From Terebella lapidaria (taxonomy: Eukaryota; Annelida; Polychaeta; Terebellida; Terebellidae), in assembly GCA_949152475.1 (NCBI GenBank), contig OX424562.1, forward strand, positions 24,738,209-24,802,208: DNA of 64,000 nt. Direction: 5' to 3'. The notes under the pieces were generated by a model. It was given only the letters and a program-made list of their open reading frames with translations. It did no database searches and was not told the origin of the DNA. Position 1 is the first letter of the stretch; each line of letters opens with the position of its first letter. Both the position numbers and the translations under genes were made by a program. Below, in pieces: positions 17,501-62,456 of the stretch.

Positions 17501-17649
17501 TTATTGTAGAATATCATATGTTATTATGCTGTACAATACACAATTGCTGGTTGTTTACAGTTTATAAACATTTATGACAGCTAAAGTGGGTGTTGATGAT
17601 GAATGTTGTTTCTGGGGGGAAACAGCTACCAAACAGCTTAACAATCAAT

Positions 17650-24616: not shown

Positions 24617-27306
24617 TATACCCACATTTATCGTCGCTGAAACGGTGCGGTTCAAGTTGATATAAATAACGGTTATGATGGGTCGACCTGTGGGTCAAGA
24701 TTCTTCAAGAGTGCTGGTACATTGGGTATAAGGAGTATGTCCCAAATGGAATCAATTCTGAGGGCAAGTGGAAGTAAATATTTCCGACAGTTTGTAATGG
24801 CTTTCAGTAGAGCAGGTACATGGACATTAATTCACTTGTTGATTCATACTTGACATGCGTTATGTGTTTATTGCCATGGCAAGATTATGAGCAAAGCAAC
24901 AACCAAAAACGACATATACATGCATTCACAAAAAAGTACCACCGAAGAACGCATCTAAAACAAAGTCAGCAATAATGTTGAAAATTATGAAACAATTGTC
25001 GTTTTATTTTAAGATGCCATTGAAGATCGTTTGCAGCTTTGGAGCATTGTGGCTAAAATATGGTAATCAATAATAGTTATTCAAATACGTGTCAAGACAG
25101 GCTCTGGATATTAAATGTGAATGAATTAATCAAAGATAATTTGATTATTGATTTATCAACTATTTCGGGTTTGGTGGTCTCGGAATTAAGGCCGTTATAA
25201 TTAAAATCAATAAAGCTGGACAAAAGCAGCGATTAGTCACCTTACAAATGAAAACGTCTCCCAATACTGCTAAATTTAGTACATAGGAAGCATAGGTGAT
25301 CAAAAGCAATTCACTGGTGTGACGACGATTTGTCACCATGCATGACTCCAGACAACGCAAGTGACAGCAAATGAAATACAACTGCAATGCCTTTCAAATT
25401 GACGGCATGAACAATGCAACTGATGCTGAAACAACAAGATCTGATATCAGTGGTATAATAAATGTTTAAAAAAATAACACACGCAATAAACATGAGTAAC
25501 TCAATGAAAATACAGTGTTCCATAGAATTCAACGAAAAAGTATGTTTCTTTTTGGTGGATCTTTTTTTTGGTAGCAAAACAATGATACTCTCATATAACT
25601 CGTTTTACGCTCGCATAATTCGACTGCTGTTACGACTGTCACACTCATAGCTATGAAAACTGGGTAATATATGTTGAAAATGAGTTCAGAATGGTATATT
25701 GCTGAAGGGTCGTGTTGTAATTTTGCAACCACTTCCAAGTGGGGCCTGGTGGGGGCACATCCGTCATGTCTTATATAGCTTTCACACATGCTAAAATATA
25801 ATTATGTAATACCCTTTTGTTCATGAGTGTTTACGTCTTCAGAACATATTTCGTGTAAATAATATTCAGCTACACACATTTATACCAATGCTATAAGTAG
25901 ACAGATACAGTAAGTTTGCTTTGTTTAAAAAAACACTTGATTCGCCATACCATATGTCATTTACAAAGCTGACATGTTACTGGTTTAAAACAAGTATTCA
26001 CATGCACACTTCCCATATAGATTTGGGATATTCAGTGATATTCTGGCTAAATTGAAGTTAGTATTGTCTGTGCACAAAATATGTGACAACATAGATTTAT
26101 AGGAACACTGTCAGAGCACATATCTAATGACTAAATTAACTATCTTTGATAAGTCTATATATATTTTTGCAGTTTTCACTTCGATATATCAATTGCAAAA
26201 CTAGTATACTGCATGTTTATTGCATGTACCCACCGACAACATGCTATAAGTAGAATGTCAGAATAGAAGATAATAGGTCAGATTGATGGCAGCGACAAGT
26301 CAGATAACAACGAGAACGGATGTTGTTGTGTGGGTAACTTTGAGACGTCAGTCACTGTGTGTCGTGACAATGAGGCGTCATAGACGGGTTACCCTGACAC
26401 AATGGATGAAGTTATCTCATCCAAGAATAATGGCACGATTTCACATACATGGTCTGCTCACACACAATATTGTGTAGTTTGTTCCAACACATTTTCCATA
26501 ACATACATTCAGAATTTAATGTATCCATGGGGTACATTTTTATTTTCAATTCCTGAAATAATGTTTCATATTCTCGTTATATTATCATTTACTACTAGTA
26601 TGATAAGAGAAAAATGTAAACATGTCATTACAGCATATCGTGTGTCTGTCAACGACAAAAAGAATGTAATAGAGAATGACCGATGGTGTTCTTGATTCAA
26701 TAGTGGAGATAAATAGTTCCAAATATGCATGAGATGTCACCATTAAAGCAATTCACTGGTAGACATGTCCAATATATCATAGTCAGTAGTGGTTCTCGAA
26801 ATGGATAGCTCAATTATCCCGATTCAACTGAATATTACGTACATAACGTTCGTATTGATAGTACAATTGCGGAATTGAGAAAACGTTTGATTGTTTAGTA
26901 TGCGTTTTACATACTGGAGCACATATAAGTAAGTATGTAGTAATCAACCTATTACCACCAACACAGCCAGAATAGATGATAGAAATAACAAACCTAAGTA
27001 CAACATTTTTGGGATAAAAATGAAGCCCAACCGAACATTTACAACCAAAAATCATACTGGCGTCATCAGGGACAGACAGTGTGTAAAAATAGATTTTTTC
27101 TACTGTACACTAGATGGAACAACTATGAAACTACCCAACAAGCTACTAGAACAGTATAGAACACTGTAACAAACTCTTGCAATATGTGTATACGGCCACT
27201 GCATAAGTATATAATCACAAGCCAGAAGGTTATTGAGTTTACGGTATCCTCATATATCAAATGAGTATATAATTGTAGAATATCATAAGTTATAATGCTG
27301 TACAAT

Positions 27307-27316
27307 AAACAACTGC
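27307..27316. repeat. Target-site duplication of LINE copy A, left
   Basis: AAACAACTGC precedes the LINE and recurs right after its poly(A) at 34579-34588. The related unit at 2895-2910 has one ACAACTGC, which is the empty site. Confidence 0.9.
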
Positions 27317-27626
27317 GACTTAAAGCATGGCAGCGCCGATCGTGTAATCTCAAAGTGCTCTGCAGAAAACTGCCGATAAACGCAGTAAGATTCGCAAAGG
27401 ATGTGACTCTCACAACACAGTAACTGTCTAAAGATGCGTGGAACTGGACATTAACATCAGATTGTGTGTTCACCCAGCAGACCTAACATAATCTTCGGAT
27501 AGAAAAAATCGACATTTTACGCAAGACATTCGCATTGCCCATACACAATATACATCGCGGCGAGGAAGACGCAGCGAACCGTGACCGGCTGACGGTGGTC
27601 ACATACATAGCTACACAGACTGTTGT
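27317..27626 (+). promoter_or_regulatory. 5' UTR / presumed internal promoter of LINE copy A
   Basis: About 310 bp lie between the exact 5' end of the insertion and the ORF1 ATG. A full-length LINE must carry its promoter here, which is inference from family biology. I recognise no specific promoter motif. Confidence 0.45.
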
Positions 27627-28910
27627 ATGGAAAGTAACAATACTACCACACAGGGCTCCACCCCCTCAAGCTCTAGGAAACGCAATCGCTCACAAGTATC
27701 ACCAGCGCTCTGTGAAGCTAACAAAATGCCAAAGCAGGAACTGGCCAACGCTCCGCGGTGGGCACAAGAAATGTACAGCGGCCTGACCGCCCAGATACAG
27801 GAGGTAAAGATTGACATCGAGGGCGTCAAGGAAAAACTCAGTGTCCTAACAAAGGACGTATCCAAGCATGATCAGCAAATCAACGACATTGTTGTTGAAA
27901 ATGAACGATTGCACAAACAAATCGAAAAACTTGAAACTGACAAGGCTAATGTACATGACAAGGTCCTTCTCCTAGAGTCATATTCTATGCGCAAACAGCT
28001 GCTAATCCACGGACTTCCCGAAAAAACATGGGAAAGTGAGCTACAATCTGAAGCCACAGTCCGCATCTACCTGAAAACTTCACTGAAGCTTGATCCAGAC
28101 AACATCGATTTCGACCGTGTTCATCGAGTGGGTCCTAAGATCACGTCCAGACGACAGACCCACAACAGAACAGTCAAGCCGAGGCCCATCATTGTCAGTT
28201 TCCTGCGGTCAAGCGACAAGCAAAAAGTGTGGAACGCAAGAAACACACAACCTGACGAGTCTGACCAATCACAGCCCCAGCAGTCCGATATCTACATCAC
28301 TCGACATTACCCGGCGGAGATACGAGCACGCAGGAAAGTCCTGACGCCGATATTGTCTGCTGCAAAATCCATGTCAAAATACAAAGACCACTGCTACATC
28401 CGAGAGGACAAACTTGTGATTTTTGACATACCGTACACAGTGAAAACATTGCATCTCCTTCCCGATGACCTCGACCCCCGAAAACTGTCCACTCCGACCA
28501 TAAATGAGACCACATATTTCTGGGGACGCAACTCTCCATTATCCAACCACTATCCTTGTGACATCGAGATAAACGGCACCTTGTATAACTGCTCCGAACA
28601 GTTCTACCTTCATCAGCTAGCGCTCCATGTCAACGACACGGGAGCTGCAAACGCAATATTGAACGCCGATGACCCCGCAGCCCAGAAAGCCATAGCAAAC
28701 AAGATCAACTACGATTATAAAAAGTGGCTAGAAATAGCGCCGAGGGTGATGGAAAAAGGCCTCCAAGCCAAGTTCGATCAGAACAAAAACTTGTGTTCCT
28801 TCCTCGTGTCGACAGGTAACACTACCCTCGCTGAAGCCTCACCTACCGACAAATTCTGGGGGATTGGCATGTCTCTTGAAGCTGTAAGGAAAGCCGACGA
28901 CCCAATCTGA
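27627..28910 (+). CDS. LINE ORF1 protein: coiled coil, RRM, CTD and NADAR domain (copy A)
   Basis: The 427-residue product starts with a basic Ser-rich head (RKRNRSQ, residues 17-23). A coiled coil follows at about 50-118. Next comes an L1-type RRM at about 119-205, with YSMRKQLLIHGLPE, FDRVHRVG and PRPIIVSFLRSSDKQ. The L1 C-terminal RNA-binding domain is at about 220-283 (DIYITRHYPAEIRARRK, REDKLVI). From about 296 it enters a NADAR/YbiA-like domain: FWGRNSPLSN, CSEQFYLHQ (candidate catalytic Glu324), W367, GLQAKF and ASPTDKFWGIG. A TGA at 28908 ends it, but the same frame continues TGQNQLGELLKSIRNKL to 28967. That is the normal last NADAR motif, and copy B has TGG (Trp) at this place. The TGA is therefore a late nonsense mutation removing about 19 residues. 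Expected role: binding LINE RNA; the glycosidase role is inferred. Confidence 0.9.
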   Translation: MESNNTTTQGSTPSSSRKRNRSQVSPALCEANKMPKQELANAPRWAQEMYSGLTAQIQEVKIDIEGVKEKLSVLTKDVSKHDQQINDIVVENERLHKQIEKLETDKANVHDKVLLLESYSMRKQLLIHGLPEKTWESELQSEATVRIYLKTSLKLDPDNIDFDRVHRVGPKITSRRQTHNRTVKPRPIIVSFLRSSDKQKVWNARNTQPDESDQSQPQQSDIYITRHYPAEIRARRKVLTPILSAAKSMSKYKDHCYIREDKLVIFDIPYTVKTLHLLPDDLDPRKLSTPTINETTYFWGRNSPLSNHYPCDIEINGTLYNCSEQFYLHQLALHVNDTGAANAILNADDPAAQKAIANKINYDYKKWLEIAPRVMEKGLQAKFDQNKNLCSFLVSTGNTTLAEASPTDKFWGIGMSLEAVRKADDPI

Positions 28911-28998
28911 ACAGGCCAGAATCAACTAGGCGAGCTGCTGAAAAGCATCCGGAACAAACTACAGTGAACACAGACTGATATCAGAGTGACTCGAAACG

Positions 28999-29649
28999 AT
29001 GCCGCCTTCAAAACGGTACTGTCCTATCCGTCATATTTATGACGATATGCACGTTAAACTCACAGGACCTAAGTGCCACTACAGACACACTCTATACAAG
29101 TGGCCCGGGCATATTGGGAACAATTACACCATTCTGAGCGATAGTATCTGTAAATTCATCAGAAATACCCGATACACTTGTGTTCAAGCATTTCCTGGCG
29201 CACGAATTGAAACATTGAAACGTCACATCAGAATGTACGGCGCCAGAGTAAAATCTTTCAAACTGATTATACTGCACGTCGGGACCAATAACCTCGCATC
29301 CTGCTCGGCCGAACACATCACGCAAGTCTACGATCAGCTGGTGCAGGAAATCAAAGTGCTCAATCCACTCGCAAAGATCGCCATCTCCGCCATAATACCC
29401 CGTCCAAAGGATACATCCACGGAAGACGCCGTCCGTCAGGAAGTCAATACGCGCCTCCGTAGACTATCCAAGTCGCGCGGTTGTCACTTCCTGTACACGT
29501 GGAGGCCCTTCATCCAACAAGACAAAACCGTCGACCGTACCATGTTCGCGCGGGACGGACTCCATCTCAGCTACAAAGGAACCTCAGCACTGAAACTGTT
29601 CTTCGACGGTACGGTTACAAGACTACGAGGTCAGTTGGACAAGTCCTAA
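28999..29649 (+). CDS. LINE-encoded SGNH/GDSL esterase (copy A)
   Basis: The 216-residue protein has the SGNH hydrolase blocks in order. Block I is ILSDSICKFI, with nucleophile Ser49 in SDS instead of the usual GDS. Block II is AFPGARIE (Gly67). Block III is HVGTNNL (Gly95, Asn97/98). Block V is DGLHLSYKG, giving the catalytic Asp186 and His189. Family members hydrolyse esters such as acyl or acetyl groups; the substrate here is unknown. The gene starts 31 bp after the ancestral ORF1 stop, in another frame, so it probably needs reinitiation or an internal entry site. SGNH domains are established in ORF1 proteins of CR1-type LINEs, where they may act on membranes or RNP delivery. Here the domain is a gene of its own. 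The frame is intact and matches copy B throughout. Confidence 0.9.
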   Translation: MPPSKRYCPIRHIYDDMHVKLTGPKCHYRHTLYKWPGHIGNNYTILSDSICKFIRNTRYTCVQAFPGARIETLKRHIRMYGARVKSFKLIILHVGTNNLASCSAEHITQVYDQLVQEIKVLNPLAKIAISAIIPRPKDTSTEDAVRQEVNTRLRRLSKSRGCHFLYTWRPFIQQDKTVDRTMFARDGLHLSYKGTSALKLFFDGTVTRLRGQLDKS

Positions 29650-29900
29650 AGGAAAAACTTCATCAGTTTTAAAGTTCTGTACCAAACGTACTCTTACTAC
29701 TAGGTTAGTAATTTTCTTTTTTTGTATTATTTCTATTATAGACAACGTCGTACATCCGTTAATATATCAGGCGATCTATAGACTTAGTATAAAATGTACG
29801 TGCCTTATATCATGTACCCTCAGGCGAGATCCAGTATAGTGGTACAGCATAGTATACAAAAAATGAATGTGTGTCCTTGGTGAGTACCTTTGCCGCGGGC

Positions 29901-30012
29901 TGGCGTGGCCATCTCTTCAGTCTGTCTGGGATTGCAGGTGAGCTTGTGCTTGTACTTGGCCCAGCTGACTGTCGATGTGGAACCTCCAGTCCCAACGGTA
30001 ATCTTCCTCACA
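29901..30012 (+). promoter_or_regulatory. Hairpin repeat R1 of LINE copy A
   Basis: This ~110-bp block repeats at 30208-30319. Its core at 29930-29961 reads GATTGCAGGTGAGC, loop TTGT, then GCTTGTACTTGGCC. In RNA, GUGAGC can pair with GCUUGU (two Watson-Crick G-C pairs, A-U and G-U wobbles) closing a 4-base loop, with CAG opposite CUUG below it. CAGGTGAG also matches a 5' splice-site consensus. Confidence 0.65.
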
Positions 30013-30207
30013 TCGCCCATAAATAGCCATGAATTCTAGTTTGTGACAGTTTGTGACAGCATAGGTATCTGTGGATGTGTCCTCACGTGTAATATGTAAT
30101 TGTACATCCATACGTATGTCTCTGTGAAATCAATACATCAAAAAGAAATATGTATAAGCTGAAATGGCGGTTGCATGGTACCAAACTGTGAGTATTGTTG
30201 TCGGTGA

Positions 30208-30319
30208 CTGGCGTGCCCATTTCTTCAGTCTATCTGGGATTGCAGGTGAGCTCGTGCTTGTACTTGGCCTAGCTTACTGTCGGCGTGGGCCCTCCAGTCC
30301 AAACGGTAATCCCCTCACA
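30208..30319 (+). promoter_or_regulatory. Hairpin repeat R2 of LINE copy A
   Basis: Second direct copy of R1, 308 bp downstream. The core at 30238-30269 differs from R1 only in the loop (TCGT instead of TTGT); the rest of the block has several substitutions. It ends about 210 bp before the RT start codon. Confidence 0.65.
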
Positions 30320-30531
30320 GTGTTATCACTAATGCCACATCCCTGTGCAATCACTCACACAATTATGTCACACTATGATGGCAGTATCTCAGAGCATCGC
30401 ACGCCACATCGGTCTGCACTAATTAAAATACTAACTAAGATGTTCATCATTACTCTAATGACTGTCCTTTATATTTTGTGTTTCTCATCATACATACTAA
30501 CCAGTACCGACCTACTTCACAACTATACATC

Positions 30532-33500
30532 ATGGATAACTTAGCCTTAAATTCTCTTAATGTACGCGGCATACGAACAGACAAAAGAAAGCGAATCAGC
30601 ATATTTTCTACCATCGCTAATGAGCACAAAGCAATAACGTTCCTACAGGAAACACATAGCTCTCCAGATATAGAAAATAAATGGAAAAACGAATGGGGCG
30701 GGGATATTGTATTTGCCCACGGGACTCCCCGAAGTAAAGGTGTAGCAATTCTAATACCCAGAAACCTAGAATATACAATAATATCTGACTTTAAAGATTC
30801 AGAAGGTCGTTTCATAATTCTTGAGATTTCGTGTCTAAACAATGTTTTTGTGCTCGTAAACGTATACGCACCAACGCAGCTAAGCGAAAATAACCAAATA
30901 CGTTTTATAGAAAAACTAATGGACTGTCTGACTAAGTACGACGGAAAAAATCTCATACTAGGAGGCGATTTCAATATTGTTCTCGACCCATCCCTAGATA
31001 AGAAAGGAGGCAATACGAGCATGAACAGCTCATTCAGATTTAGAAAGTGTATGGAAAGTTTAATGGAATCCTACCAGCTAAGCGACATATGGCGAGTTTT
31101 AAATGAAAGCAAGTTCATGTTCACATGGCAATGTAAAGCAAAAAACATATACTGTCGCTTAGATTACTGGTTAATTTCAGATCATCTAATCAATACAATC
31201 GACAAGACAGATATCATGCCATGTTCCTTGTCAGATCATAGCCTCATAGAACTTAGTTTAAAGGGATCACCCAATTCAAAACGCGGCCCCGGGTATTGGA
31301 AATTTAATAACATGCTGTTAAGAGACACTCGCTATATAACCCTCATAAAAAAAGTTATACAGGATAATATTGATAAATACAACATTGAAGATAAAGGATT
31401 AAAGTGGGAAATGATCAAAATGGAAATTCGGAATGCCACAATAATGTACAGTAAACATAAATCGGCTGATCTAGCCAAATCTAAATCAGACCTCGAGAAT
31501 AAAATTAAAAACTTGCACGAAAACCTGGCTAATGGTGTAAATATAGACCAGAATAACGAGCAATTAAAAGCATATGAGCAAGAATTAAATAGCTTAAAAT
31601 TAGAACACGCAAGCGGTGTCATAATGCGATCCAGAGCGCAATGGTTCGAAGAAGGTGAAAAGAATACTTCTTATTTCCTAAATCTAGAAAAGCGGAACTA
31701 TGTTAACAAAACAATAACGCAGCTAACTGTAAATGGAAAAAGCATTGTGCATCCCCATGAAATCCTTGAGCAAGAAAGAATATTCTACGAAAATCTCTAC
31801 AAGGAAACAAGCAAAAACCCCAGAAACCATGAACACTATATGTATATGTTAAACAACCGCAACATTCCACGATTAACCCCTAACCAAAATCAAGACAGTA
31901 ACATAGTTATAACTGAAACATCATGCGGCAATGCCCTTAAAAATTTGAAAAATGGAAAAACACCAGGAATAGATGGCCTATCAAGCGACTTTTACAAATT
32001 CTTCTGGCCTGATATAAAGACCTTAGTGAAAGAATCAATCGCCTACGCCTTCGAGAAGGGCGAATTATCAATAAATCAGAAGCGTGGCATTCTAACATTA
32101 ATACCCAAAAAAGGGAAAGATAGACTACATCTAAAAAATTGGAGACCCCTGAGTTTACTTGCAACGGATTATAAAATAATAGCTAAAATAATTGCACAAA
32201 CTTTAGCCCCACTCCTACCCACGGTCATAAAAAATGACCAAAATGCATATATAAAAGGCAGATATATAGGTGAAAATATTAGAACCACGGAAGACATTAT
32301 TCATTATTGCAAAATCCGAAATCTCTCTGCTATAATTCTTCTAATCGACTTTGAAAAAGCCTTCGATACAGTAAGATGGCAATTTCTATTCGACAGTCTA
32401 AAGTCTTTCAACTTGAGTAGGAACCTCATTAAATGGGTAAAGATTCTGTACACACATATAAACAGTGTTATAATAAATAATGGTTACTCTTCGAGAGGAT
32501 TCAATATTGAACGTGGAGTAAGGCAAGGATGTCCCCTATCTGCTTATCTGTTCATCTTAATTGTTGAAATCATGGCAATAGAAATAAGAGCGAATAAAAA
32601 TATTAGAGGAATTAAACTAAAAACTAAAGAAGTGAAAATTAGCCAATTTGCTGACGATACCACCCTATATCTCCTCGACTACGACTCAATAAAACATGTG
32701 AAACTATTCTTACACACTTTCTATCAGTGCTCTGGACTCCGAGCGAACATGGACAAAACGCAGGCATACTTAATCGGCAAGCACATGAAACGCTTCAAAG
32801 AAAACGACGACCTACAATGGAAACAAGGTCCAATACCTACCCTAGGGATATATATTTGCGATACTGAAATTGAAAATCAAAAGCTTAATTTTGACCCCAA
32901 AACAAAACAAATAAAAACCCTCCTAAATATCTGGAAACAGCGTAGCCTATCATTAAAGGGAAAAATCACTATAATCAACTCATTACTAGCCTCGACAATA
33001 GTTTACCAGTGTAGTAACATAGTAACCCCTCCATGTGTTATCAAAGAACTCGATAGCTTGTTTTTCGAGTTCTTATGGAACGGGAAGAAACACAAAATCT
33101 CCAAAACAACAATCATCAAACAAGTTGAAGATGGCGGCCTGAAAATGATAGATATAGATGCTAAAATAAAATCTCTAAAATTCTCCTGGTTCAAACGAGC
33201 GCTCACAAACCCGGGCAGTACTTGGAAAATTATTTTGGACGAAATCATAAACATACCTTTCGATTATATTGTACAGTGCAGAAGTAATTGTGTTATCAAA
33301 AACATGCCTACTTTTTACCAAGAAATATTGACCACTCTACATCAATTAAGCTATCTAAATTATGATATGGGACTCGAGTTGAACGAACTAAATCTCTGGT
33401 ATAACCCAAACATAATACTCGACAAGCAACCTATATACTGGAAGAAATGGTTTGATGCAGGTATTCGCATAATGGGCGACCTCTTAGATGAGACCAACAA

Positions 33501-34317
33501 TTTCCTAACCCTCGAAAAATTTAAACAGAAATACAACATAAAATGCAACTTTCTTGACTACGTGCGTCTCCTTGATGCAATACCCAGAGCCTGGCGTAAA
33601 AAACTAACGTGTAAACCAGATGAGTCTAAACTAGACCCAACAGCATCCTCAGTTGATAAATCAACGAATAACAATATCGTCGACCCCTTACTAACTAAAT
33701 CAAGAGAATTGTACTGGGCAATTATCAAGGGGAAAACACTTGCAACAGAGCCAACGTGCATCTCCAGGTGGAATAGATTATATGACATTTTATCAGAATC
33801 TTGGCCAACAATCTTCCAAACAGCTTTCCTATCATGTCGAGAAACTTATTTACAGTCATTCCAGTATCGAGTAATTCACAGAATAATCCCATGTAACGAA
33901 ACATTATACAACATGAAGGTAGCCAGCACGAACATTTGTACATATAAGCTATGTCATCAAAACGTCACTGACAGTATCCAACACCACCTAGTCACATGTC
34001 CACCTGTCAAAACTTTCTGGAATACTTTCACCCAGTGGTGGGATAACCTACATCAAAATAAAACTTTGAACATCAGCGAACAAGAAATAATATTAGGTAA
34101 ACCATGTGTCAGTGATGAAGACTATACTGTCAATTTTTGTATTATTCTGGCAAAAAATTTCATTCATAACTGTAAACTTAAGGAAACAGATATATTCTTC
34201 ATGTCTTTTTTAGCGATATTGAAATGTAAGCTAAGTACAGAAAAAGAGATACACGTTAATCTAGGTAAAGAGTCAATTTTCTATAATCGCTGGGGCCACC
34301 TTTATGACAACTTATAG
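30532..34317 (+). CDS. LINE ORF2: APE endonuclease and reverse transcriptase (copy A)
   Basis: From ATG 30532 the protein has 1261 residues, the same start context as copy B (LNSLNVRGIRTDKRKR). An upstream non-ATG extension is unlikely. Endonuclease, residues 1 to about 225: FLQETHS (catalytic Glu), VNVYAPTQ, GGDFNIVLDP, FTWQC, RLDYWLIS and CSLSDHSLIEL (SDH with the catalytic His). Reverse transcriptase, about 440-760: LIPKKGKD, NWRPLSLL, LIDFEKAFDTVRW (motif A), RGVRQGCPLSAYLF (motif B) and SQFADDTTLY (FADD catalytic pair near residue 706). A C-x4-C...H-x4-C cluster near residue 1137 matches the C-terminal Cys/His motif of L1-type ORF2. It nicks target DNA and primes reverse transcription of LINE RNA. 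No stop or frameshift; potentially functional. Confidence 0.95.
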   Translation: MDNLALNSLNVRGIRTDKRKRISIFSTIANEHKAITFLQETHSSPDIENKWKNEWGGDIVFAHGTPRSKGVAILIPRNLEYTIISDFKDSEGRFIILEISCLNNVFVLVNVYAPTQLSENNQIRFIEKLMDCLTKYDGKNLILGGDFNIVLDPSLDKKGGNTSMNSSFRFRKCMESLMESYQLSDIWRVLNESKFMFTWQCKAKNIYCRLDYWLISDHLINTIDKTDIMPCSLSDHSLIELSLKGSPNSKRGPGYWKFNNMLLRDTRYITLIKKVIQDNIDKYNIEDKGLKWEMIKMEIRNATIMYSKHKSADLAKSKSDLENKIKNLHENLANGVNIDQNNEQLKAYEQELNSLKLEHASGVIMRSRAQWFEEGEKNTSYFLNLEKRNYVNKTITQLTVNGKSIVHPHEILEQERIFYENLYKETSKNPRNHEHYMYMLNNRNIPRLTPNQNQDSNIVITETSCGNALKNLKNGKTPGIDGLSSDFYKFFWPDIKTLVKESIAYAFEKGELSINQKRGILTLIPKKGKDRLHLKNWRPLSLLATDYKIIAKIIAQTLAPLLPTVIKNDQNAYIKGRYIGENIRTTEDIIHYCKIRNLSAIILLIDFEKAFDTVRWQFLFDSLKSFNLSRNLIKWVKILYTHINSVIINNGYSSRGFNIERGVRQGCPLSAYLFILIVEIMAIEIRANKNIRGIKLKTKEVKISQFADDTTLYLLDYDSIKHVKLFLHTFYQCSGLRANMDKTQAYLIGKHMKRFKENDDLQWKQGPIPTLGIYICDTEIENQKLNFDPKTKQIKTLLNIWKQRSLSLKGKITIINSLLASTIVYQCSNIVTPPCVIKELDSLFFEFLWNGKKHKISKTTIIKQVEDGGLKMIDIDAKIKSLKFSWFKRALTNPGSTWKIILDEIINIPFDYIVQCRSNCVIKNMPTFYQEILTTLHQLSYLNYDMGLELNELNLWYNPNIILDKQPIYWKKWFDAGIRIMGDLLDETNNFLTLEKFKQKYNIKCNFLDYVRLLDAIPRAWRKKLTCKPDESKLDPTASSVDKSTNNNIVDPLLTKSRELYWAIIKGKTLATEPTCISRWNRLYDILSESWPTIFQTAFLSCRETYLQSFQYRVIHRIIPCNETLYNMKVASTNICTYKLCHQNVTDSIQHHLVTCPPVKTFWNTFTQWWDNLHQNKTLNISEQEIILGKPCVSDEDYTVNFCIILAKNFIHNCKLKETDIFFMSFLAILKCKLSTEKEIHVNLGKESIFYNRWGHLYDNL

Positions 34318-34547
34318 GTTGACATTCTATATTACTGTATCATGAACCTATCGTATGCCTGCTTATCAGCTCCATGTCGTAGCCTGTATTATTTAGTAAT
34401 TTACTGCTTGGTATAATCGTACACCGCCTACATCTCATATCCTATGATGCTGTATCCCATGATGACATTCCTGTATGCATTTATGTAAAGTTGTACGCCT
34501 TGTAGCACAAAATGTATGTATTATGTATGTATGTATGATGTGAAACA

Positions 34548-34581
34548 AATAAAGGATTCTCGATTAAAAAAAAAAAAAAAA
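34548..34581 (+). terminator. Poly(A) signal and poly(A) tail of LINE copy A
   Basis: AATAAA at 34548-34553 lies about 12 bp before the A-run at 34566-34581. The A-run runs into the second target duplication. Confidence 0.88.
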
Positions 34582-34588
34582 CAACTGC
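34579..34588. repeat. Target-site duplication of LINE copy A, right
   Basis: AAACAACTGC, matching 27307-27316; its first bases merge with the poly(A) tail. Confidence 0.88.
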
Positions 34589-53900: not shown

Positions 53901-54590
53901 GTGAAGCATCATGTAGAAAGAGAGGGAGATTATCTCATGTAAATTTTTCCTTGTCATTAAATGACAAGGAACCGGTCATATATTTAGGGATTTCAGAAAT
54001 ATGAGTCGATGTTACTTTCTAGGTGTTGTATGTAGGGCTATATTGAATTATGATTAAGCGAAACAAAGCACACGTGTAATAGTCGTATACGTTATTTTAT
54101 GATAAAAAAAGAAGCATCAAATTTTCAATGATGGAGGATGATTCGACCATTGTGGATAACTTCTCACAAGAAATATGGTTGTTCAATCAACACGAATAAA
54201 GGAATATGCATTCGGAAAATGTGGTGTTTTCGTTCTGATAAATTTTGCAGGTAACTTTTGTTTCTATACGTCAATTGTCCCTTTCTTTTTATATCAGCTT
54301 TTTACTCATATTGCCCCAGATAATTTTATGAGCTGCACCTTCAAAATTTCGATTGGAAATAGAGAATTAGTCAGACCTGAATAGATAGAAACCTCTTTCC
54401 ACACTAAAATGACAGTTTTTGTCGAAGTGATACAATTTACAGACCAATAAATACGTTCAGGGTGCTCTGACTGTTTGGAAACAAGATCGCGTTTTTCCAA
54501 GCCCGAAAAAAAATACGAAGAACTTTCAAAAATTGTTCCAAATCTGGTACGGTTTTCTCCTACATAACTGAGCGGTACAGCGGCGGTGCG
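53901..54590. other. Unassigned sequence before LINE copy B
   Basis: AT-rich, no recognisable gene or RNA. The 5' end of LINE copy B lies somewhere between here and 54903. I could not fix it because no left partner for the sequence after the poly(A) (TTCAGCGATTACATTC) was found. Confidence 0.4.
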
Positions 54591-54903
54591 GCAGCATGTA
54601 AAATTGCTCTCGTGTTTCTGAACTAAAATGCTGGAACAAAACATAGTTGGGCTTATAAAGCTACAGCAATGAACAAATAAGTCTTCATAGAACTGACATC
54701 CACTCTCATTTTGGATTATGGCAACAGAAACATTGGCTAATTTCATTGGATATATACTCGGAAAATAGACTGCGGACATTGTATATTGCCATTCCATGCA
54801 AAGGGGAGCATCCATGCGTGACGATGTATGCGTGTACACAAATGAACCGGCCACACGGCGGAATATAGTCCAGCTATCGACTCACTAGACCGTAACAACC
54901 CCT

Positions 54904-56229
54904 ATGCCTCCAAGGAAGCGCAATCGATCGCAAGTTTCGCCACTTCCTGAACAAAATAAAATGTCTAGAGAAGAAATACAACCGCTGCCAAATGCGCCAC
55001 CATGGGCCAACCAGATGTACTTGGGGCTCTCATCCAAAATTGAAAAAGTGAACAGCGATGTCCTGGAAAAAATTGAGGCAGTGCGCACTGACGTGAAAAA
55101 AAATGAAATACGGATCCAAAACCTGGAAACGGGAAACACTGCTCTACAAACAGATGTACGGAGTGTAGAAAGTGAGCAAGACAAAATCTACGATCGTCTT
55201 CTTATGCTCGAATCATACTCGATGCGGAAACAACTCCTTTTCCATGGGCTACGGGAGACCGCCTGGGAAAGTGAAGAACAAGCGGAAACAACCGTACGCA
55301 CGTACATACAATCTTATCTTCACATGGATGACACGGAAATCGTATTCGATCGTGTACACAGGGTCGGTCCAAAAATAACGTCTCAACCATCTACACCCGA
55401 CAAAACCAGACCTCGACCAATTATCGCCAGCTTTCTACGATCCAGCCAAAAACAATAATTATGGGACGCGCGCCCGAAGTTCTACGATAGAGAAAATGAT
55501 TCTTCAAACGCTACTGTACCTGGCAGCAACACGTATGACAACTATTCAGCAGTATATATCACGCGACACTACCCAGCAGAAATTATCAAACGCAGGCGAA
55601 GCTTGACGCCTATTCTACAGGCAGCCAAATCGATGACAAAGTACAAAGACAAATGCTATCTTCGAGAAGACAAATTAGTGATTGACAACATAAGCTACAC
55701 GGAGAAAACCCTACATTTACTCCCAGACGACTTGGATCCTAGATGGATTTCAACACCCACAGAATCTGATACCACTTTCTTCTGGGGCAGAAACTCACCA
55801 CTCTCAAATCATCACAAATGCACCTTCCAGGTAGATGGGATTAAGTACAACTGCAACGAACAATTCCTGTTTCATCGACAAGCATTGTTTGCAAGAGACA
55901 ACGATAAGGCAGCAGCAATACTGAATGCAAAAGATCCCGTTGAGCAAAAGGCTCTATCGAAACACATAAGGATCAACAAAGCGGCATGGCAACAAACTGC
56001 CCCGGAAATCATGAAACAGGGTCTCAGGGCTAAATTTGAACAGAATCCACACCTGCGCGACTTCCTCGTGCAAACAAAAGGCTCGACAATCGCGGAAGCT
56101 TCACCGTTCGACAAATTCTGGGGAATAGGAATTTCAATCAACTCTCGCGATCTAACAGACAAAACCAAATGGACTGGTCAAAATCAACTCGGGAAGCTAC
56201 TCATGGAGATCCGGTCGGAGCTGGTCTAA
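54904..56229 (+). pseudogene. LINE ORF1 protein with NADAR domain (copy B, one nonsense codon)
   Basis: One frame encodes 441 positions, broken only by TAA at 55456-55458. Before it: a basic head (RKRNRSQ, identical to copy A), a coiled coil (about residues 38-105) and an RRM with SYSMRKQLLFHGL, FDRVHRVG and RPIIASFLRSS. After it, in the same frame: YITRHYPAEI and REDKLVI (C-terminal RNA-binding domain), then the NADAR domain with FWGRNSPLSNH, CNEQFLFHRQA (catalytic Glu candidate), GLRAKFEQN, SPFDKFWGIG and the closing WTGQNQLGKLLMEIRSEL. Copy A has a Lys codon where copy B has TAA, so a single A-to-T change explains the break. The NADAR part retains all the key positions visible in copy A. 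Confidence 0.88.
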
Positions 56230-56267
56230 ATTGAGGAACACTGATGGCATCAATACGGTGCAGAAAA

Positions 56268-56912
56268 ATGTCTCGTCGAAAAATGTGTCCGATCAGAAGT
56301 GTATTCGACAATGAACACATCCGGATTAGCGGTCCACATTGTAGGAACCAGCACCTGGCGTACAAATGGCCGGGACGCTTGACTAATGACTACACACTAA
56401 TCAGCGACAGCATTTGTAAATTCGTCAAGAATACAAGATATACTAGTGTGCAGGCATTTCCAGGTGCACGAATCCGATCACTAAAGTGGCACATCAAAAT
56501 GAATAACGCCACAGTCAAGCACTTCAAACTTGTCATCCTTCACATCGGTACGAATGATCTGTCTTCTGTGTCCTCTGAGGAAATCGTCAATTCGTACGAG
56601 GAACTGCTAACGGAGATTGAAAGAATTAACCCAGAAGCCAAAATAGCCATCTCTTCTATAATTCCACGTCCAAGAGACACCAAATCCCAAGACGAAACTC
56701 GCCAACATGTGAATACTTCATTGAGGAGAATCTCCAAGTCGCATGGTTGTGCCTTTCTCTACACATGGAGACCCTTTGTACAAAAGAATAAGACCACCAA
56801 CCGCTCATTGTATTGTAGTGATGAACTTCACCTGAACTACAGAGGTACCGCCGCACTGAAAAACTTTTTTGACGGAACTGTCAAACGTCTTAGAGGTCAA
56901 CTCAACCTCTAA
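56268..56912 (+). CDS. LINE-encoded SGNH/GDSL esterase (copy B)
   Basis: I chose ATG 56268 because from here the protein (MSRRKMCPIRSVFDNEH) aligns with the start of copy A. ATG 56244 in the same frame would add eight residues and lies 14 bp after the ORF1 stop. The catalytic blocks match copy A: LISDSICKFV (nucleophile Ser in SDS), AFPGARIRSL, HIGTNDL (the standard GTND form; copy A has GTNN) and DELHLNYRG (Asp and His). The frame is intact although ORF1 upstream is broken, and the motif spacing is conserved. Substrate unknown; cellular role inferred from SGNH domains of other LINEs. Confidence 0.88.
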   Translation: MSRRKMCPIRSVFDNEHIRISGPHCRNQHLAYKWPGRLTNDYTLISDSICKFVKNTRYTSVQAFPGARIRSLKWHIKMNNATVKHFKLVILHIGTNDLSSVSSEEIVNSYEELLTEIERINPEAKIAISSIIPRPRDTKSQDETRQHVNTSLRRISKSHGCAFLYTWRPFVQKNKTTNRSLYCSDELHLNYRGTAALKNFFDGTVKRLRGQLNL

Positions 56913-57106
56913 ACTCGGTGCGTGCGAGTGAGTATTGCTATAGTTACACATACTCTAAGGACTATTCTCTGATTACCAGTAAATTTCATGGACTATTATG
57001 CCAAAACATTTGTATGTCATTGGATGATGGCCAAATTAGCTGTAACTACACATGTATATATATATATGTGACAAAAAAAGTGATTGTGAGGTAAACTGGG
57101 AATGTC

Positions 57107-57215
57107 TGAGCCCGTCCACGGTGCTGTAAGGATTGCAGGTGAGCATGCGCTTGTACTTGGCCTGAGGTTCCGTGTTTCGTGGCTCTTGCATTCCCTACTG
57201 TTACACTCCCAGTTA
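57107..57215 (+). promoter_or_regulatory. Hairpin repeat R1 of LINE copy B
   Basis: The core at 57131-57162 reads GATTGCAGGTGAGC, loop ATGC, then GCTTGTACTTGGCC. The stem halves are identical to both copies in LINE A; the flanks are unrelated to LINE A. Confidence 0.65.
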
Positions 57216-57385
57216 CTTACCTTAATTTTTTCTTCATTTCACATCTCATGATGCCGAATTGAGCTATTGGTTCGAGAGTATGCCTGGCTCCAGGTGTATT
57301 AAGTAACAAAATGTGTGTTAGTCGATGATGCTCAAATTAGCTGTTATATGACAAAAAAGTGATTGTGAGGTAAACTGGGAAGTCC

Positions 57386-57492
57386 GAACCCGGCCACGGT
57401 GCTGTAAGGATTGCAGGTGAGCGTGTGCTTGTACTTGGCCTGAGGTTCCGTGGTTCGTGGTTCTTGCATTCCCTACTGTCACACTCCCAATT
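57386..57492 (+). promoter_or_regulatory. Hairpin repeat R2 of LINE copy B
   Basis: The core at 57409-57440 has the same stem halves and loop GTGT. It lies 278 bp after R1 and about 270 bp before the RT start codon, a spacing close to that in LINE A. Confidence 0.65.
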
Positions 57493-57708
57493 ACTTATCA
57501 TAAGTCAATACCCAACATTGTCATTATATATTGTGATGTTAACTTGAGCTTTTAGTTCGGGAGCACGTTTTCGGCTCCAAAAACCGCAAAACTAACGTTC
57601 TACTACTGTACAATTTGAAGTGAGATACAAACGTACACGGTAATTTCCAATTATACTCGTACATGAATCGTAGATCATACTGAGGCTTGGAATTTTTTTG
57701 ATACAGGT

Positions 57709-60700
57709 ATGACTGTTTTAAACGTGTTCTCATTAAACGTGCGGGGTTTGCGAACAGATGCGAGGAAGCGAATGAATATATTCAAAACATTTTCGGAAAA
57801 ATATCGGGGAATAACCTTCTTACAAGAAACTCATAGCATATCTGAGATCGAAAACAAATGGAAAAATGAATTCAATGGCGAAATAATATTTGCCCACGGC
57901 TCTACTAGAAGCAAAGGCGTTGCAATCCTAATCCCCAACTACATGGATTATAAATTGCTCTCAGTTTTTAAAGACCCCGAGGGGCGCTTTATCATACTAG
58001 AAATCACTGTAGATGATATAGACTATATATTAACAAATATATATGCACCAACGAAATTGTCTGAAAACGTTCAGATAAATTTTATTGAATCCTTGATCAG
58101 CAAACTCTGTGTACACGAAAACAGTAATCTGATAATAGGGGGAGATTTCAATATTGTGTTAAATCCTCTGGTTGATAAGAAAGGAGGCAACACATCGTTA
58201 AGCTCCTGTTGGAAATATCGCGCAGTTCTGGAATCCTTAATGGATACATATGAATTAAGTGACATATGGAGACTACGAAACGAGGATAAATTCATGTTTA
58301 CATGGCATTCTAAATCGAAGAAAATATACTGTCGATTAGACTACTGGTTAATTGCTAGTCACCTGAGTAGCAGAACAAAAAAGGTAGATATAATCCCCTG
58401 CTCCTTATCTGATCATAGCGTTATACAGCTACAACTGGAAAATGGACCAGATAGTAAACGTGGCTCAAGTTACTGGAAATTTAACTCCTCACTTCTAAAG
58501 GATCCAGAATACATATCTGCAATTAAAACAGTGTTAAAGGAAAGTGCAGATAAATATGATATGGAAGATAAGGCCATGAAATGGGATCTCATTAAAATGG
58601 ACATACGATTGTCCTCTATCCAATTATCTAAAGTTAAACGGCAAAATAGGAGTAAAAAAACAGCAGAATTGGAGTCTAAGCTTCAATTTTTGCACGATCA
58701 AATTTCGAATCAAGGAGAAACAGATGAAAACCGAGATGAACTCTTAGCAACCGAACAAGAACTAAACAGTATAAAAAATGAAGACATAGCTGGTATTATT
58801 TTACGATCCAAAGCCCAGTGGGCTGAGGACGGTGAGAAAAACTCATCATTCTTCTTAAACTTAGAAAAACGCAATTATAACAATAAAACTATTTCAAAGT
58901 TACAGGTAGATGGACAAATAGTAACAAACCCGCCTGATATCCTTAAGGAAGAGGTGGCATTTTACAGCAACCTATACAAAGCACCCCCCCATGATCCTCC
59001 CGATATCTCAACATATAAATCTTTGTTTACCAATATCCCCCAATTGGATGATCGGCAAATGCTTAAAAGTATGATACATATAACAGAATCAACGTGTAGC
59101 AGGGCTCTCAAAGATATGAAAAATGGTAAAACACCGGGGATAGACGGCTTAACAACAGATTTTTACAAGTTCTTCTGGACAGACATTAAACATTTAGTCG
59201 TTGAATCATTCAAATACTCGTATGAAAAGGGGGAATTGTCAATAAATCAAAAAAGAAGCATTCTTACTCTAATTCCAAAAAAAGATAAAGATAGACAATT
59301 ACTTAAAAATTGGAGACCACTTAGCCTTCTCAATACAGACTATAAACTGCTTGCTAAACTTATGGCACAACATATTGTCCCGCTGCTTCCTTCCATCATT
59401 AACGAGGACCAGAAAGCATATATAAAAGGTCGTTATATTGGTGAAAATATTCGAACCATCTCGGATATTATAGACTTCTGTAAAAAGCGAAATTTATCGT
59501 CCATTATACTCATGATTGACTTCGAAAAAGCTTTTGACACAGTCAATTGGTCTTTTTTAAATGATGCTCTGAAAGCTTTTAATTTTAGTGATAACCTCCG
59601 AAAATGGATTGAAATCATATATTCCCACATCAATTGTACAATAATAAATAATGGGTATTTTTCCAGCTATTTCGATATACAACGAGGTGTAAGACAGGGC
59701 TGCCCACTATCCCCCTATCTTTTCATTATTGCCGTAGAAATAATGGCGATTAAACTCAGAGCTAATAAAAAAATCAAAGGTATAAAATTAAACCAAAATG
59801 AGATCAAATTAAGTCAGTTTGCAGATGATACGACATTATTCCTCGAGGACTATGACTCCATAACGCAGGCAAAAGGCTTCTTTCTACTTTTCCAAAAATG
59901 CTCAGGACTGAAGATCAACATGGATAAGACCCAAGCATTTCTGATAGGGAAGCATATGAGATTTAAAGATGATGAATTGCAATGGAACACTGGCCCTATA
60001 TCCGCACTCGGAGTAACGATATGTGACAATGAAAACGACAACATAAAATTCAATTTCATGCCAAAACTTGAAAAAATGAAAGTACTTCTTAACATATGGA
60101 GGCAAAGGAATCTGTCGCTAAAGGGCAAAATTGTTATAATAAATACCTTGATAGCTTCACTCATTGTATACCCGTGTACAAATTTAACAACGCCTCATAG
60201 AATAGTGAAAGACATTGAAAATATTTTATATGACTTTTTGTGGAATGGGAAAAAACATAAAATAGCAAAGTCAACTATTATAAAAGAAATAGAAGAGGGT
60301 GGTTTAAAGATGATTGATATACACAGTAAAATATCTTCGTTGAAGTTATCTTGGCTTCGTCGAGCTTTGGATAATCCAAACAGCACATGGAAGCTAATCG
60401 TAGACAATATTATCGGCGTTGATTTCCAATATATTATTCGCGGTTGTTCAAAGATAGGCTTGACAAAATTGCCCTTATTTTATCAAGAAATTTTGAATGA
60501 CTGGTACACTTTACACACTCCCAAAACTAGCAACACACTCGATGTTCTAAAAGCGAATATTTGGTTCAATGACAAAATCATGATTGACAAAAAAACACTA
60601 TTCTGGGAAAAATGGTATGTGGCAGGTGTGAGGTACTTAGTAGATTTATTAGATTCGTCTGGCAGATTCTTAACACTGGATGCTTTAAAGCTGAAGTATG

Positions 60701-61488
60701 AGTTAAATGTGAATTTCTTGGAATATCTGAGCCTGAAATCGTCTATACCAAAACTCTGGCTGGAGACCATTTCAAAAGATGACATAAACTCCTCTACCCT
60801 ATTAGAAAATATGTCAAAAGTTTATATCTATGTAAATGAAGAGACATACACAGATTTCATGTCTCTAAAAAGTAAAGATTTATACTCTCTATTGTTAAAA
60901 TCAAAAGTAGGGAACCACACACCGATATGTGTAACCAGATGGAACAAGATATACGACATCAGTCCACAAATCTGGCCATGCTTATATGAAGCAGGATGTA
61001 TATCATGTAGAGAAACCGTACTGCAGTCCTTCCAGTACAAAGTCATCAATAGAATAATACCCTGTAATGAATTTTTGTACAATTTAAAGATCATAGAATC
61101 AAATGATTGTACATATAAATCTTGCAATATGCAAGCAGTTGATACAATTATACATTATTTTGTTGATTGCAAACCAGTACAACACTTTTGGAATGCATTC
61201 GTCAGCTGGTGGAATAATATCATTATATCCAAATTAAATCCTTTGTTGGGTGAAAACATTATATTAGGATTTCCATGCATTTCAGACGAAGATTGCATTT
61301 TGAACTTCTGTCTGATACTAGCTAAATTCTTTATACATAATTGCAAAATGAATAGCAAGGACATCTTTTTCTTGGCATTTTTGTCATTACTGAAAAGCAA
61401 AATGGAAATTGAAAGACAAATTAGTATCCAAAGAAAGGATCATTCTCTGTTTAAAAAGCGTTGGGGTCTCCTGTATTCAAACCTGTGA
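57709..61488 (+). CDS. LINE ORF2: APE endonuclease and reverse transcriptase (copy B)
   Basis: A 1259-residue protein from ATG 57709, open throughout. Endonuclease: SLNVRGLRTD, FLQETHS (catalytic Glu), NIYAPTKL, GGDFNIVLNP, RLDYWLI and CSLSDHSVIQL. Reverse transcriptase: LIPKKDKD, NWRPLSLLNTDYK, MIDFEKAFDTVNW (motif A), RGVRQGCPLSPYLF (motif B) and SQFADDTTLF (FADD). Near the C-terminus CTYKSC...HYFVDC repeats the C-x4-C...H-x4-C cluster of copy A. All catalytic residues are present, so the enzyme could be active. It nicks DNA and reverse-transcribes LINE RNA in the nucleus. Upstream ORF1 carries a nonsense codon, so mobility in cis may be impaired. Confidence 0.95.
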   Translation: MTVLNVFSLNVRGLRTDARKRMNIFKTFSEKYRGITFLQETHSISEIENKWKNEFNGEIIFAHGSTRSKGVAILIPNYMDYKLLSVFKDPEGRFIILEITVDDIDYILTNIYAPTKLSENVQINFIESLISKLCVHENSNLIIGGDFNIVLNPLVDKKGGNTSLSSCWKYRAVLESLMDTYELSDIWRLRNEDKFMFTWHSKSKKIYCRLDYWLIASHLSSRTKKVDIIPCSLSDHSVIQLQLENGPDSKRGSSYWKFNSSLLKDPEYISAIKTVLKESADKYDMEDKAMKWDLIKMDIRLSSIQLSKVKRQNRSKKTAELESKLQFLHDQISNQGETDENRDELLATEQELNSIKNEDIAGIILRSKAQWAEDGEKNSSFFLNLEKRNYNNKTISKLQVDGQIVTNPPDILKEEVAFYSNLYKAPPHDPPDISTYKSLFTNIPQLDDRQMLKSMIHITESTCSRALKDMKNGKTPGIDGLTTDFYKFFWTDIKHLVVESFKYSYEKGELSINQKRSILTLIPKKDKDRQLLKNWRPLSLLNTDYKLLAKLMAQHIVPLLPSIINEDQKAYIKGRYIGENIRTISDIIDFCKKRNLSSIILMIDFEKAFDTVNWSFLNDALKAFNFSDNLRKWIEIIYSHINCTIINNGYFSSYFDIQRGVRQGCPLSPYLFIIAVEIMAIKLRANKKIKGIKLNQNEIKLSQFADDTTLFLEDYDSITQAKGFFLLFQKCSGLKINMDKTQAFLIGKHMRFKDDELQWNTGPISALGVTICDNENDNIKFNFMPKLEKMKVLLNIWRQRNLSLKGKIVIINTLIASLIVYPCTNLTTPHRIVKDIENILYDFLWNGKKHKIAKSTIIKEIEEGGLKMIDIHSKISSLKLSWLRRALDNPNSTWKLIVDNIIGVDFQYIIRGCSKIGLTKLPLFYQEILNDWYTLHTPKTSNTLDVLKANIWFNDKIMIDKKTLFWEKWYVAGVRYLVDLLDSSGRFLTLDALKLKYELNVNFLEYLSLKSSIPKLWLETISKDDINSSTLLENMSKVYIYVNEETYTDFMSLKSKDLYSLLLKSKVGNHTPICVTRWNKIYDISPQIWPCLYEAGCISCRETVLQSFQYKVINRIIPCNEFLYNLKIIESNDCTYKSCNMQAVDTIIHYFVDCKPVQHFWNAFVSWWNNIIISKLNPLLGENIILGFPCISDEDCILNFCLILAKFFIHNCKMNSKDIFFLAFLSLLKSKMEIERQISIQRKDHSLFKKRWGLLYSNL

Positions 61489-61733
61489 AAATGGTGTTTC
61501 CTTATACGTGTACATTATCTAGGCATACGTACATGTACTATTTTTTTCCGAAAAATTGGTCCTCTTCCCAATCTCCAAATATAAATGAAGATGGTCCTTC
61601 GCAAACGCCGCACGTGCCTCTATGTATCAATGAATATTCATAGTGTCGAACTCATGCTTGTGTATCTTTTCTTTCGTTGCTCATCATTTTGTGTATGTTT
61701 CGTTCATGTTACCTGTATCTGATGTTTATGTGT

Positions 61734-61741
61734 AATAAAGG

Positions 61742-61774
<33 letters not shown>
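61734..61774 (+). terminator. Poly(A) signal and tail of LINE copy B
   Basis: AATAAA at 61734-61739 is followed by a 28-bp A-run at 61747-61774. Confidence 0.88.
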
Positions 61775-61776
<2 letters not shown>

Positions 61777-61962
61777 CAGCGATTACATTCACACCACACC
61801 AAAGAATGTCACGAAATAGTTGATATGAGGGAGGTTCAACAATGTCTCATGGTTTTGTCATCACTAGGTTGTCAGGGAGGTGACGGAATTCTGGTTGCCA
61901 TCCCGTGGTTGCTACGAGTAATGAGCTATGTTATTGATTCATACCAACGAGCCTCTTTTATA

Positions 61963-62454
61963 TGGTTGGCCAAACTGGTCATAAGTAAATTTTGTTGCGC
62001 GGAGTGAATATGCAATTATATCGCGCAATAAATTAACCAATCATGGACAGTGTTTTATGACGCGATCAAAATATATTTATATCGCGCGTTAATTCAACCA
62101 TTCGTACACCGTCTCTCCATGCGCGACACATTTAAGGATACTTATTGCGCGCATTAAATCAGCAATTGTATGGCGCAGTAAACCAGCCAATCATGTAAGG
62201 TGTTTTATGTCACGGTACAATTTGATTTAGATCGCGGAATAAATCATCCAATGACAACCTGTGATTTCATGCCCGCAATAAATATATGCATCGCGCATTG
62301 AAAGACAGGTTATGAATGGTTGACATATAGCGCGACATAAATATATTTAGATCGCGATATATAACGCCTCACCTGATTGGCTGATTTACTGCGCGACATA
62401 ATTCCTTATTTATCGCGCGCAACAAACTTTACTTCTGACCAGTTTGGCCAACCA
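61963..62454. mobile_element. Foldback MITE rich in ATCGCGC words (492 bp)
   Basis: TIRs begin TGGTTGGCCAAACTGGTCA on the left; the right end, reverse-complemented, begins TGGTTGGCCAAACTGGTCA as well. The inverted similarity runs on for about 45 bp to GTTGCGCG. TA flanks both ends (61961-61962 and 62455-62456), compatible with a TA target duplication. The interior repeats short blocks of the type ATCGCGCAATAAAT and CCAATCATG in both orientations. CpG-rich words stand out in AT-rich DNA. No coding capacity. Confidence 0.78.
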
Positions 62455-62456
62455 TA

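Follow-up and report, generated by a model that had tools for sequence, protein, structure and literature searches.

The window analysed here is a stretch of 64,000 nucleotides of Terebella lapidaria DNA, which contains two LINEs, designated elements A and B. Their features are given below in window positions.

27317..34580, + strand: element A, a full-length LINE of ~7.26 kb whose 3′ end carries AATAAA and poly(A)
27307..27316: target-site duplication of element A, left copy, 8-10 bp, edge ambiguous owing to an A-run
34579..34588: target-site duplication of element A, right copy, 10 bases identical to 27307-27316
27627..28910, + strand: ORF1 of copy A, 427 aa, ended by an in-frame TGA inside NADAR; the same frame runs to 28967
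27939..28490, + strand: RRM and CTD of L1-ORF1p type, copy A (profile A3)
28515..28967, + strand: NADAR domain, copy A, a PF08719 match interrupted by the TGA
28999..29649, + strand: SGNH/GDSL hydrolase ORF, copy A, 216 aa (Pfam PF13472, 1.4e-13)
29880-30003 and 30188-30311, + strand: direct repeat pair, copy A, 124 nt, 85%, between the SGNH ORF and ORF2
30478..34317, + strand: ORF2 of copy A, APE endonuclease and L1-type reverse transcriptase (Pfam)
54568..61774, + strand: element B, 5′ edge from two siblings (54568, 54571), 3′ edge at the poly(A)
54904..56229, + strand: ORF1 of copy B, broken by an in-frame TAA (55456-55458) close to where the RRM ends
55777..56223, + strand: NADAR domain, copy B, open throughout (Pfam match over aa 107-255 of the interval 55459-56226)
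56244..56912, + strand: SGNH/GDSL hydrolase ORF, copy B, 222 aa (Pfam PF13472, 1.6e-15)
57099-57225 and 57377-57503, + strand: direct repeat pair, copy B, 127 nt, 90%, in the same place as the copy A pair
57709..61488, + strand: ORF2 of copy B, with endonuclease and reverse transcriptase (Pfam), 56% identical to that of copy A

Insertion structure of the two elements

Homology between the left flank of element A and two local repeats ends at 27316. On the right, it picks up again at 34581, at the same point (2907-2914) of one local repeat; with the second repeat the right flank aligns only farther along. Among the nine sibling copies listed, eight begin at 27317-27324 and one begins later. With its poly(A), target-site duplication and an empty-site homologue within the window, copy A is a genuine LINE insertion. 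The local repeats (1249-2914, 15816-17547 and 25700-27316) are 81-86% identical and one of them supplies the empty site; part of the repeat at 25700-27316, positions 26929-27251, resembles a tandem repeat scattered at many places in the genome.

Element B ends in a poly(A) at 61747-61774, and a search for a target-site duplication around it found none. An imperfect inverted repeat with 174-nt arms (79%) occupies 61961-62456, just past its 3′ end. On the minus strand, 5051-7910 holds fragments of another retroelement, with Pfam RVT_1 matches of 1.3e-6 (just below the cut-off) and 1e-19.

Domain composition of ORF1

An earlier note on this DNA had described NADAR motifs at the end of the copy A ORF1. 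The motifs were located as described, and Pfam NADAR (PF08719) matched the ORF1 of copy A at 6e-29 (101.8 bits, aa 297-418) and that of copy B at 4e-41 (141.4 bits), against a cut-off of 35.1 bits; with such scores, chance resemblance is excluded. The ORF1 NADAR domain also matched the Phytophthora nicotianae NADAR (8bau) at 5.3e-33 and Escherichia coli YbiA (2b3w) at 2e-23. The note had also read 27627-28967 as one continuous frame, which proved incorrect: the TGA at 28908-28910 ends ORF1 at 427 aa, and the domain continues for 18 further codons until the next stop at 28967. Sibling ORF1s of the A type have open frames of 459-460 aa. The claim that copy B carries the same fusion holds for the domain itself, but its ORF1 is likewise broken, by the TAA noted above; B-type siblings are open over 446 aa.

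The RRM and CTD of L1 ORF1p type that the note had proposed were recovered by profile A3, built from the RRM-CTD region of 24 related ORF1s, which matched LINE-1 ORF1p at 6.9e-13 (2ykp) and 5e-11 (2ldy). Single-sequence searches with PF02994 (L1 RRM) were nearly blank, with no match in copy A and one among the 24 ORF1s, at 9e-4; the profile settled the question. For the putative N-terminal coiled coil of the window ORF1s, Pfam gave sub-threshold matches only. Human LINE-1 ORF1p (2ykp, 2yko) thus shares the RRM and CTD by profile, but the match stops ahead of NADAR, a domain that human ORF1p is not known to have. Judged by these matches, the window ORF1s are L1-ORF1p-like RNA-binding proteins that end in a YbiA-subfamily NADAR domain.

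Active-site residues

Residue numbers are those of the P. nicotianae NADAR (PMC11543638), transferred by eye through the alignment. Equivalents of Glu43, Glu125, Asp130 and Trp133 are kept in all 27 ORF1 families (grouped as described below), and that of Trp89 in 25/25 aligned rows. The catalytic glutamate, whose loss in most families would have spoken against the note's proposal, is therefore present throughout, as is the second one. The last-strand residue is Glu, not Asp or His, in 27/27 families, and a Glu at this place defines the YbiA subfamily (PMC11125620, PMC11543638). The note's statement that key positions are kept is correct for the five equivalents just named, found in both copies, but fails at Lys50/K95, the position that coordinates the ADP-ribose phosphate, which is Leu in copy A and Gln in copy B.

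This lysine is present in 21 of the 27 families. The six families without it (L, Q, Q, M, R and F) are all A/B-like, being members of group c1 or, in the case of L059, assigned by similarity and present in no tree. When the two window NADARs were aligned with 29 bacterial and viral sequences, Lys accounted for at least 90% of the residues at this position. E88 and K95 are required in the E. coli C7 NADAR (PMC11543638); with Leu or Gln at a position that is mostly Lys elsewhere, the window copies have lost a residue essential in that enzyme. For the same protein, PMC11543638 reports that a K-to-R change retained in-vitro activity without rescuing cells, and that the Glu matching the second LINE Glu is dispensable, with Asp replacing it. 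Positions equivalent to Arg79 and Arg93 vary among the LINE NADARs, as seen by eye. Assignment to the NADAR family is independent of the Lys50 position. The stand-alone proteins 8bau and 2b3w have the domain family, the glutamates, the Asp and the Trp in common with the LINE domains; they differ in not being fused and in possessing the lysine absent from the window lineages.

Genome-wide census

A NADAR search of the 761-Mb genome gave 973 candidates. The best 150 were scored and all exceeded the Pfam cut-off; 144 of these 150 have no internal stop, in a score ranking that favours good copies, and the census counts NADAR domains rather than LINE ORF1s confirmed one by one. Loci L001-L072 comprised 30 fetched through NADAR itself and 42 fetched through the RNA-binding core. 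A NADAR match was present in 41 of the 42 core-fetched loci, namely in 29/30 of L031-L060 and in 12/12 weakly similar ORF1s hand-picked from the weak end of the list (29-38% identity to the copy A core); in L069, one of these 12, the domain is cut short. The one locus without a match is L040, for which a NADAR is listed at C2:51087745, 1.6 kb beyond its core and outside the fetched locus. Distinct ORFs containing NADAR over 100 aa or more numbered 65 and clustered at 80% identity into 27 families.

Selection on the domain

Only 3 of 1625 pairs, all between L001 and near-copies of one family, were usable for pairwise dN/dS, and we therefore used codon models (MG+F3X4) on 25 of the 27 families (L030 and L059 excluded), with 7 rows in c1 and 8 in c2. 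The omega ranges are log and checkpoint values of one run. For NADAR, omega was 0.048-0.069 in c1, 0.045-0.062 in c2 and 0.075 over the 25 families; the corresponding values were 0.022-0.042, 0.079-0.087 and 0.067 for the RRM-CTD and 0.15-0.16, 0.276 and 0.219 for the N-terminal part. Fixing the NADAR omega at 1 was worse by 217 and 290 log-likelihood units, and the lysine-poor c1 was roughly as constrained as c2 in this domain. These omegas lean on the model because synonymous change is saturated everywhere except in three pairs of one family; the sole unsaturated comparison, L001 against its three near-copies, gave a dN/dS of 0.08 for NADAR and 0.07 for the core.

The earlier note had expected selection on the domain, and dN/dS is indeed far under 1. 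The estimates show that purifying selection acts on NADAR in many of the genome's LINE families, and a domain kept in this way probably helps the element. Together, the comparisons support a fusion to an L1-type ORF1 that is spread over distant families and maintained by purifying selection.

ORF2 partners

Copy A ORF2 matched LINE-1 ORF2p (8uw3) at 1.6e-85 (290.8 bits, aa 22-905, spanning EN and RT) and the best R2 at 2.7e-20 (74.8 bits) in the PDB, which holds few LINE proteins. By this comparison, the window elements carry an L1-type ORF2. Outside the window, 12 stretches downstream of NADAR-ORF1s were analysed, and an endonuclease or RT was found in 11 of them and in L170 neither. The ORF2 of L171 (family L056) is L1-type; those of the ten other stretches are of other types. 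The non-L1-type RTs are ~25% identical to the copy A RT, and the two tested matched L1/R2 weakly (76/79 bits and 69/44 bits). The motif GVPQGS.LGPLLF may point to Jockey-superfamily-like elements, with CR1, L2 and RTEX among the candidate clades. 2A-like motifs occur near the N-terminus of non-L1-type ORF2s (GNIELHPGP, GTVELNPGP, GDVEPNPGP and GDIETNPGP, in L073, L074, L009 and L030).

Because the gap between ORF1 and ORF2 reaches 1.5-3.2 kb in six non-L1-type elements, we tested whether the two ORFs form a unit. The gap and ORF2 start recurred behind same-family ORF1s elsewhere at 95-99% identity in all three families tested, in one of which the tandem-repeat portion of the gap varies in length. 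This recurrence indicates that NADAR-ORF1 serves both L1-type and non-L1-type LINEs.

Trees, possible capture and proposed module transfer

Groups c1, c2 and c3 were recovered by both the NADAR tree and the RRM-CTD tree, and in the joint tree their bootstrap values were 99-100. Since the trees give the same three groups, NADAR and the RNA-binding part have travelled together. When 25 LINE NADARs were placed with 32 bacterial, phage, plasmid and viral ones, a set without host or other eukaryotic NADAR, the LINE domains formed one side of a branch (99/98). The bacterial sequences came from the best 80 of 338 matches to a query from c2; 36 of the 80 were dropped as near-copies, and then 22 of the remaining 44, before this tree was made. 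Group c1 alone had weak support (67/87) in the tree with bacterial/viral NADARs. Because the LINE NADARs lie on one side of the 99/98 branch, a single capture of NADAR by LINEs would fit best within this set. An IMG/VR search returned 2 loci, and the IMG/VR search with A4 returned none.

In the RT tree, L012 and L019 grouped with the partners of c3, whereas in ORF1 their placement with c3 was rejected (p 2e-7). An exchange of ORF1 among non-L1-type partners is suggested by this discordance but not established, because the alternative RT tree, with all c2 partners together, was not rejected (p-AU 0.124). The simplest reading is that the ORF1-NADAR module moved between LINE groups; alternatively, the fusion may predate these groups. 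Reticulate evolution of ORF1s has been proposed, and L1-like ORF1s are known in CR1 and L2 elements (PMC4120745). The type II ORF1s of CR1, L2 and R1 LINEs similarly combine an L1-like coiled coil, RRM and CTD beside a non-L1 ORF2, but the extra domains described in the accessible text are PHD and esterase, unlike the NADAR or UPF0029 found here (PMC4120745).

SGNH ORF and spacer

In both window elements, SGNH/GDSL hydrolase is encoded by a separate ORF downstream of ORF1, followed by ~0.8 kb and then ORF2; in both copies this spacer contains the 124-127-nt direct repeat pair. The catalytic blocks of SGNH hydrolases (SDS, GTN and DxxH) were located in both SGNH ORFs. The best PDB match was 4c1b, an 'ORF1-encoded protein' (2.5e-8, copy B). 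Searches with the two window SGNH proteins by tblastn found no counterpart within ~1 kb around NADAR in L051, L052, L054-L058 and L060, nor within 1.5 kb of NADAR in L001-L030. Esterase ORFs occur in CR1, L2 and RTEX LINEs and in rotifer LTR and Penelope-like elements (PMC5408684; PMC3905857). These elements likewise hold an SGNH hydrolase within a retroelement (PMC5408684), but in the window the hydrolase has an ORF to itself, flanked by a type II ORF1 and an L1-type ORF2.

Duplications of ~125 nt, or longer tandem repeats in other families (gaps of L074 and L075), precede ORF2. Such spacer repeats lie between ORF1 or the SGNH ORF and ORF2 in otherwise diverged elements.

UPF0029 at the ORF1 C-terminus

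We scored 125 of 5967 candidate L1-type RT matches for domains within a 7-kb span, using the best 150 of 973 NADAR and the best 150 of 381 UPF0029 matches. A listed NADAR lay 3.0-5.0 kb upstream on the same strand in 30/125, and a listed UPF0029 lay 2.4-5.9 kb upstream in 15/125. None of the 125 had both, and 80 had neither among those best 150 of 973 and of 381. In the same span downstream, NADAR and UPF0029 were both at 0; an opposite-strand NADAR was found upstream once. By eye, at least three further RT matches have NADAR (C7:42611947, C16:21898901 and C14:12197372).

Upstream sequence was fetched for three L1-type ORF2s without a listed NADAR. L176:2-1009 (+), upstream of the RT at C6:28171891, encodes the same RRM-CTD with UPF0029 behind it (Pfam 2.1e-20), and L175/L178 have a similar RRM-CTD-UPF0029 arrangement that is broken, as seen by eye. 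By these matches, the place of NADAR is taken by an IMPACT-like domain, UPF0029, in some sibling L1-type families. No literature coupling UPF0029 with retrotransposons was found, in a search that covered few subscription papers. In L177, an ORF1 was looked for upstream of the L1-type ORF2 and none was seen; an ORF at L177:2-532 (+) lies upstream of that ORF2 and by eye presumably resembles a GIY-YIG-type nuclease.

Discussion

The earlier note knew of no description of NADAR in a LINE ORF1, but one exists: PMC12477816 (Genome Biol 2025) reports NADAR in ORF1s of Crassostrea gigas LINEs of an L1-related clade, in one main-text sentence and a supplementary alignment. The fusion is therefore not wholly new, this being the one prior report recognised in a search that covered few subscription papers. 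The name Tx1 is used there for the oyster elements, and we keep it as their label only. The present analysis describes the architecture and active-site pattern of the fusion, the selection on it, a census of copies, its non-L1 partners and the UPF0029 alternatives. The same paper describes a YbiA-family NADAR inside another retroelement protein, the Pol of Ectocarpus Gypsy elements, and calls the oyster matches divergent; Gypsy differs in being an LTR element with NADAR in the N-terminal part of Pol (PMC12477816).

LINE ORF1 proteins have been seen chiefly as RNA chaperones, and L1 work has established that ORF1p coats the element RNA. By analogy with characterised NADARs, we favour, at a probability of about one half, the reading that the NADAR of ORF1p hydrolyses an ADP-ribosyl or ribosyl adduct on the element's own RNP. 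Coating of its own RNA by ORF1p would bring NADAR to the RNP and to the site of reverse transcription, where it would cleave an N-glycosidic ribosyl or ADP-ribosyl adduct. The likeliest adduct would be ADP-ribose placed by a host transferase on element RNA, cDNA or RNP proteins, and its removal would keep the RNP competent. All NADAR/YbiA proteins tested in PMC11125620 hydrolysed guanosine-ADP-ribose, NADAR proteins tested so far take ADP-ribose off guanosine (PMC11125620, PMC11543638), and processing of an RNA intermediate has been suggested (PMC12477816). ZAP is a member of the PARP family. It restricts human retrotransposition (PMC4441479), a finding that does not itself show ADP-ribosylation of LINEs. 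Several points count against the hydrolase reading. The lysine is lost in 6/27 families, both window lineages included; the K-to-R change and the dispensable Glu of the E. coli C7 enzyme, and the variable Arg79 and Arg93 positions, also weigh against it, and no host transferase is known to act on these elements. In lineages that lack the phosphate-binding lysine, those of the window included, the domain would probably act on an altered substrate or only bind it.

Such lineages are best suited by a role in binding, in which NADAR, hydrolysing little or nothing, would be an ADP-ribose reader or a protein-interaction surface and so direct the RNP; one conceivable target is ADP-ribosylated chromatin at DNA breaks. 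Lys50 is replaced in both window lineages (Leu, Gln) and in four A/B-like families (Gln, Met, Arg, Phe), and the omega of the lysine-poor group is as low as that of the lysine-bearing c2. However, all 27 families retain the two glutamates in contact with the distal ribose, for which a pure reader has no obvious need, and the lysine is retained in 21/27; for the family as a whole, we regard pure binding as unlikely. Another alternative is an enzyme that clears soluble NAD-derived or riboflavin-type ribosyl compounds, which might be signals of an NAD-based antiviral response, rather than nucleic-acid adducts. NADAR/YbiA proteins cleave riboflavin intermediates, and the LINE domains are YbiA-type, with Glu in the last strand. 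Soluble ADP-ribose derivatives have been proposed as substrates that viral NADARs may prefer (PMC9503650), a proposal that also counts against an adduct on the RNP, although the same source, where it deals with eukaryotic RNA viruses, leans towards macromolecular substrates. The covalent tie to an RNA-binding protein favours an RNP substrate, since a diffusible one needs no fusion, and we consider the small-molecule role rather improbable. That the domain was captured without function, or is a read-through artefact, might be supposed from the stops that break both window ORF1s. The selection and co-inheritance data make this highly improbable for the family: 144 of the best 150 NADAR matches (of 973, a score-biased set) have no internal stop, omega is about 0.05-0.08, and the RRM-CTD and NADAR trees share three clades.

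Hydrolysis of an adduct on the RNP thus remains our preferred reading for NADAR. A broader and tentative reading, which we hold to be possible but doubtful, is that the ORF1 C-terminus provides a slot in which counter-defence or signalling enzymes can be swapped, with whole ORF1 modules moving between LINE superfamilies. NADAR would then counter ADP-ribosylation, while UPF0029/IMPACT might counter stress-kinase signalling. A second testable case is provided by the UPF0029 that occupies this slot in sibling families. If the slot reading is true, LINEs would resemble some large RNA and DNA viruses in bringing their own immune-evasion enzymes, carried here on the RNA-coating protein.

PMC11125620 calls the roles of eukaryotic NADARs, including those of animals, unclear. 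In the LINEs described here, ORF1 bears an enzyme-type domain whose family reverses guanine ADP-ribosylation, and selection has preserved it in strongly diverged families, alongside ORF2s of more than one type. Activity of the domain, if confirmed, would be direct evidence that host ADP-ribosylation of nucleic acid or RNPs is both encountered and reversed by retrotransposons.
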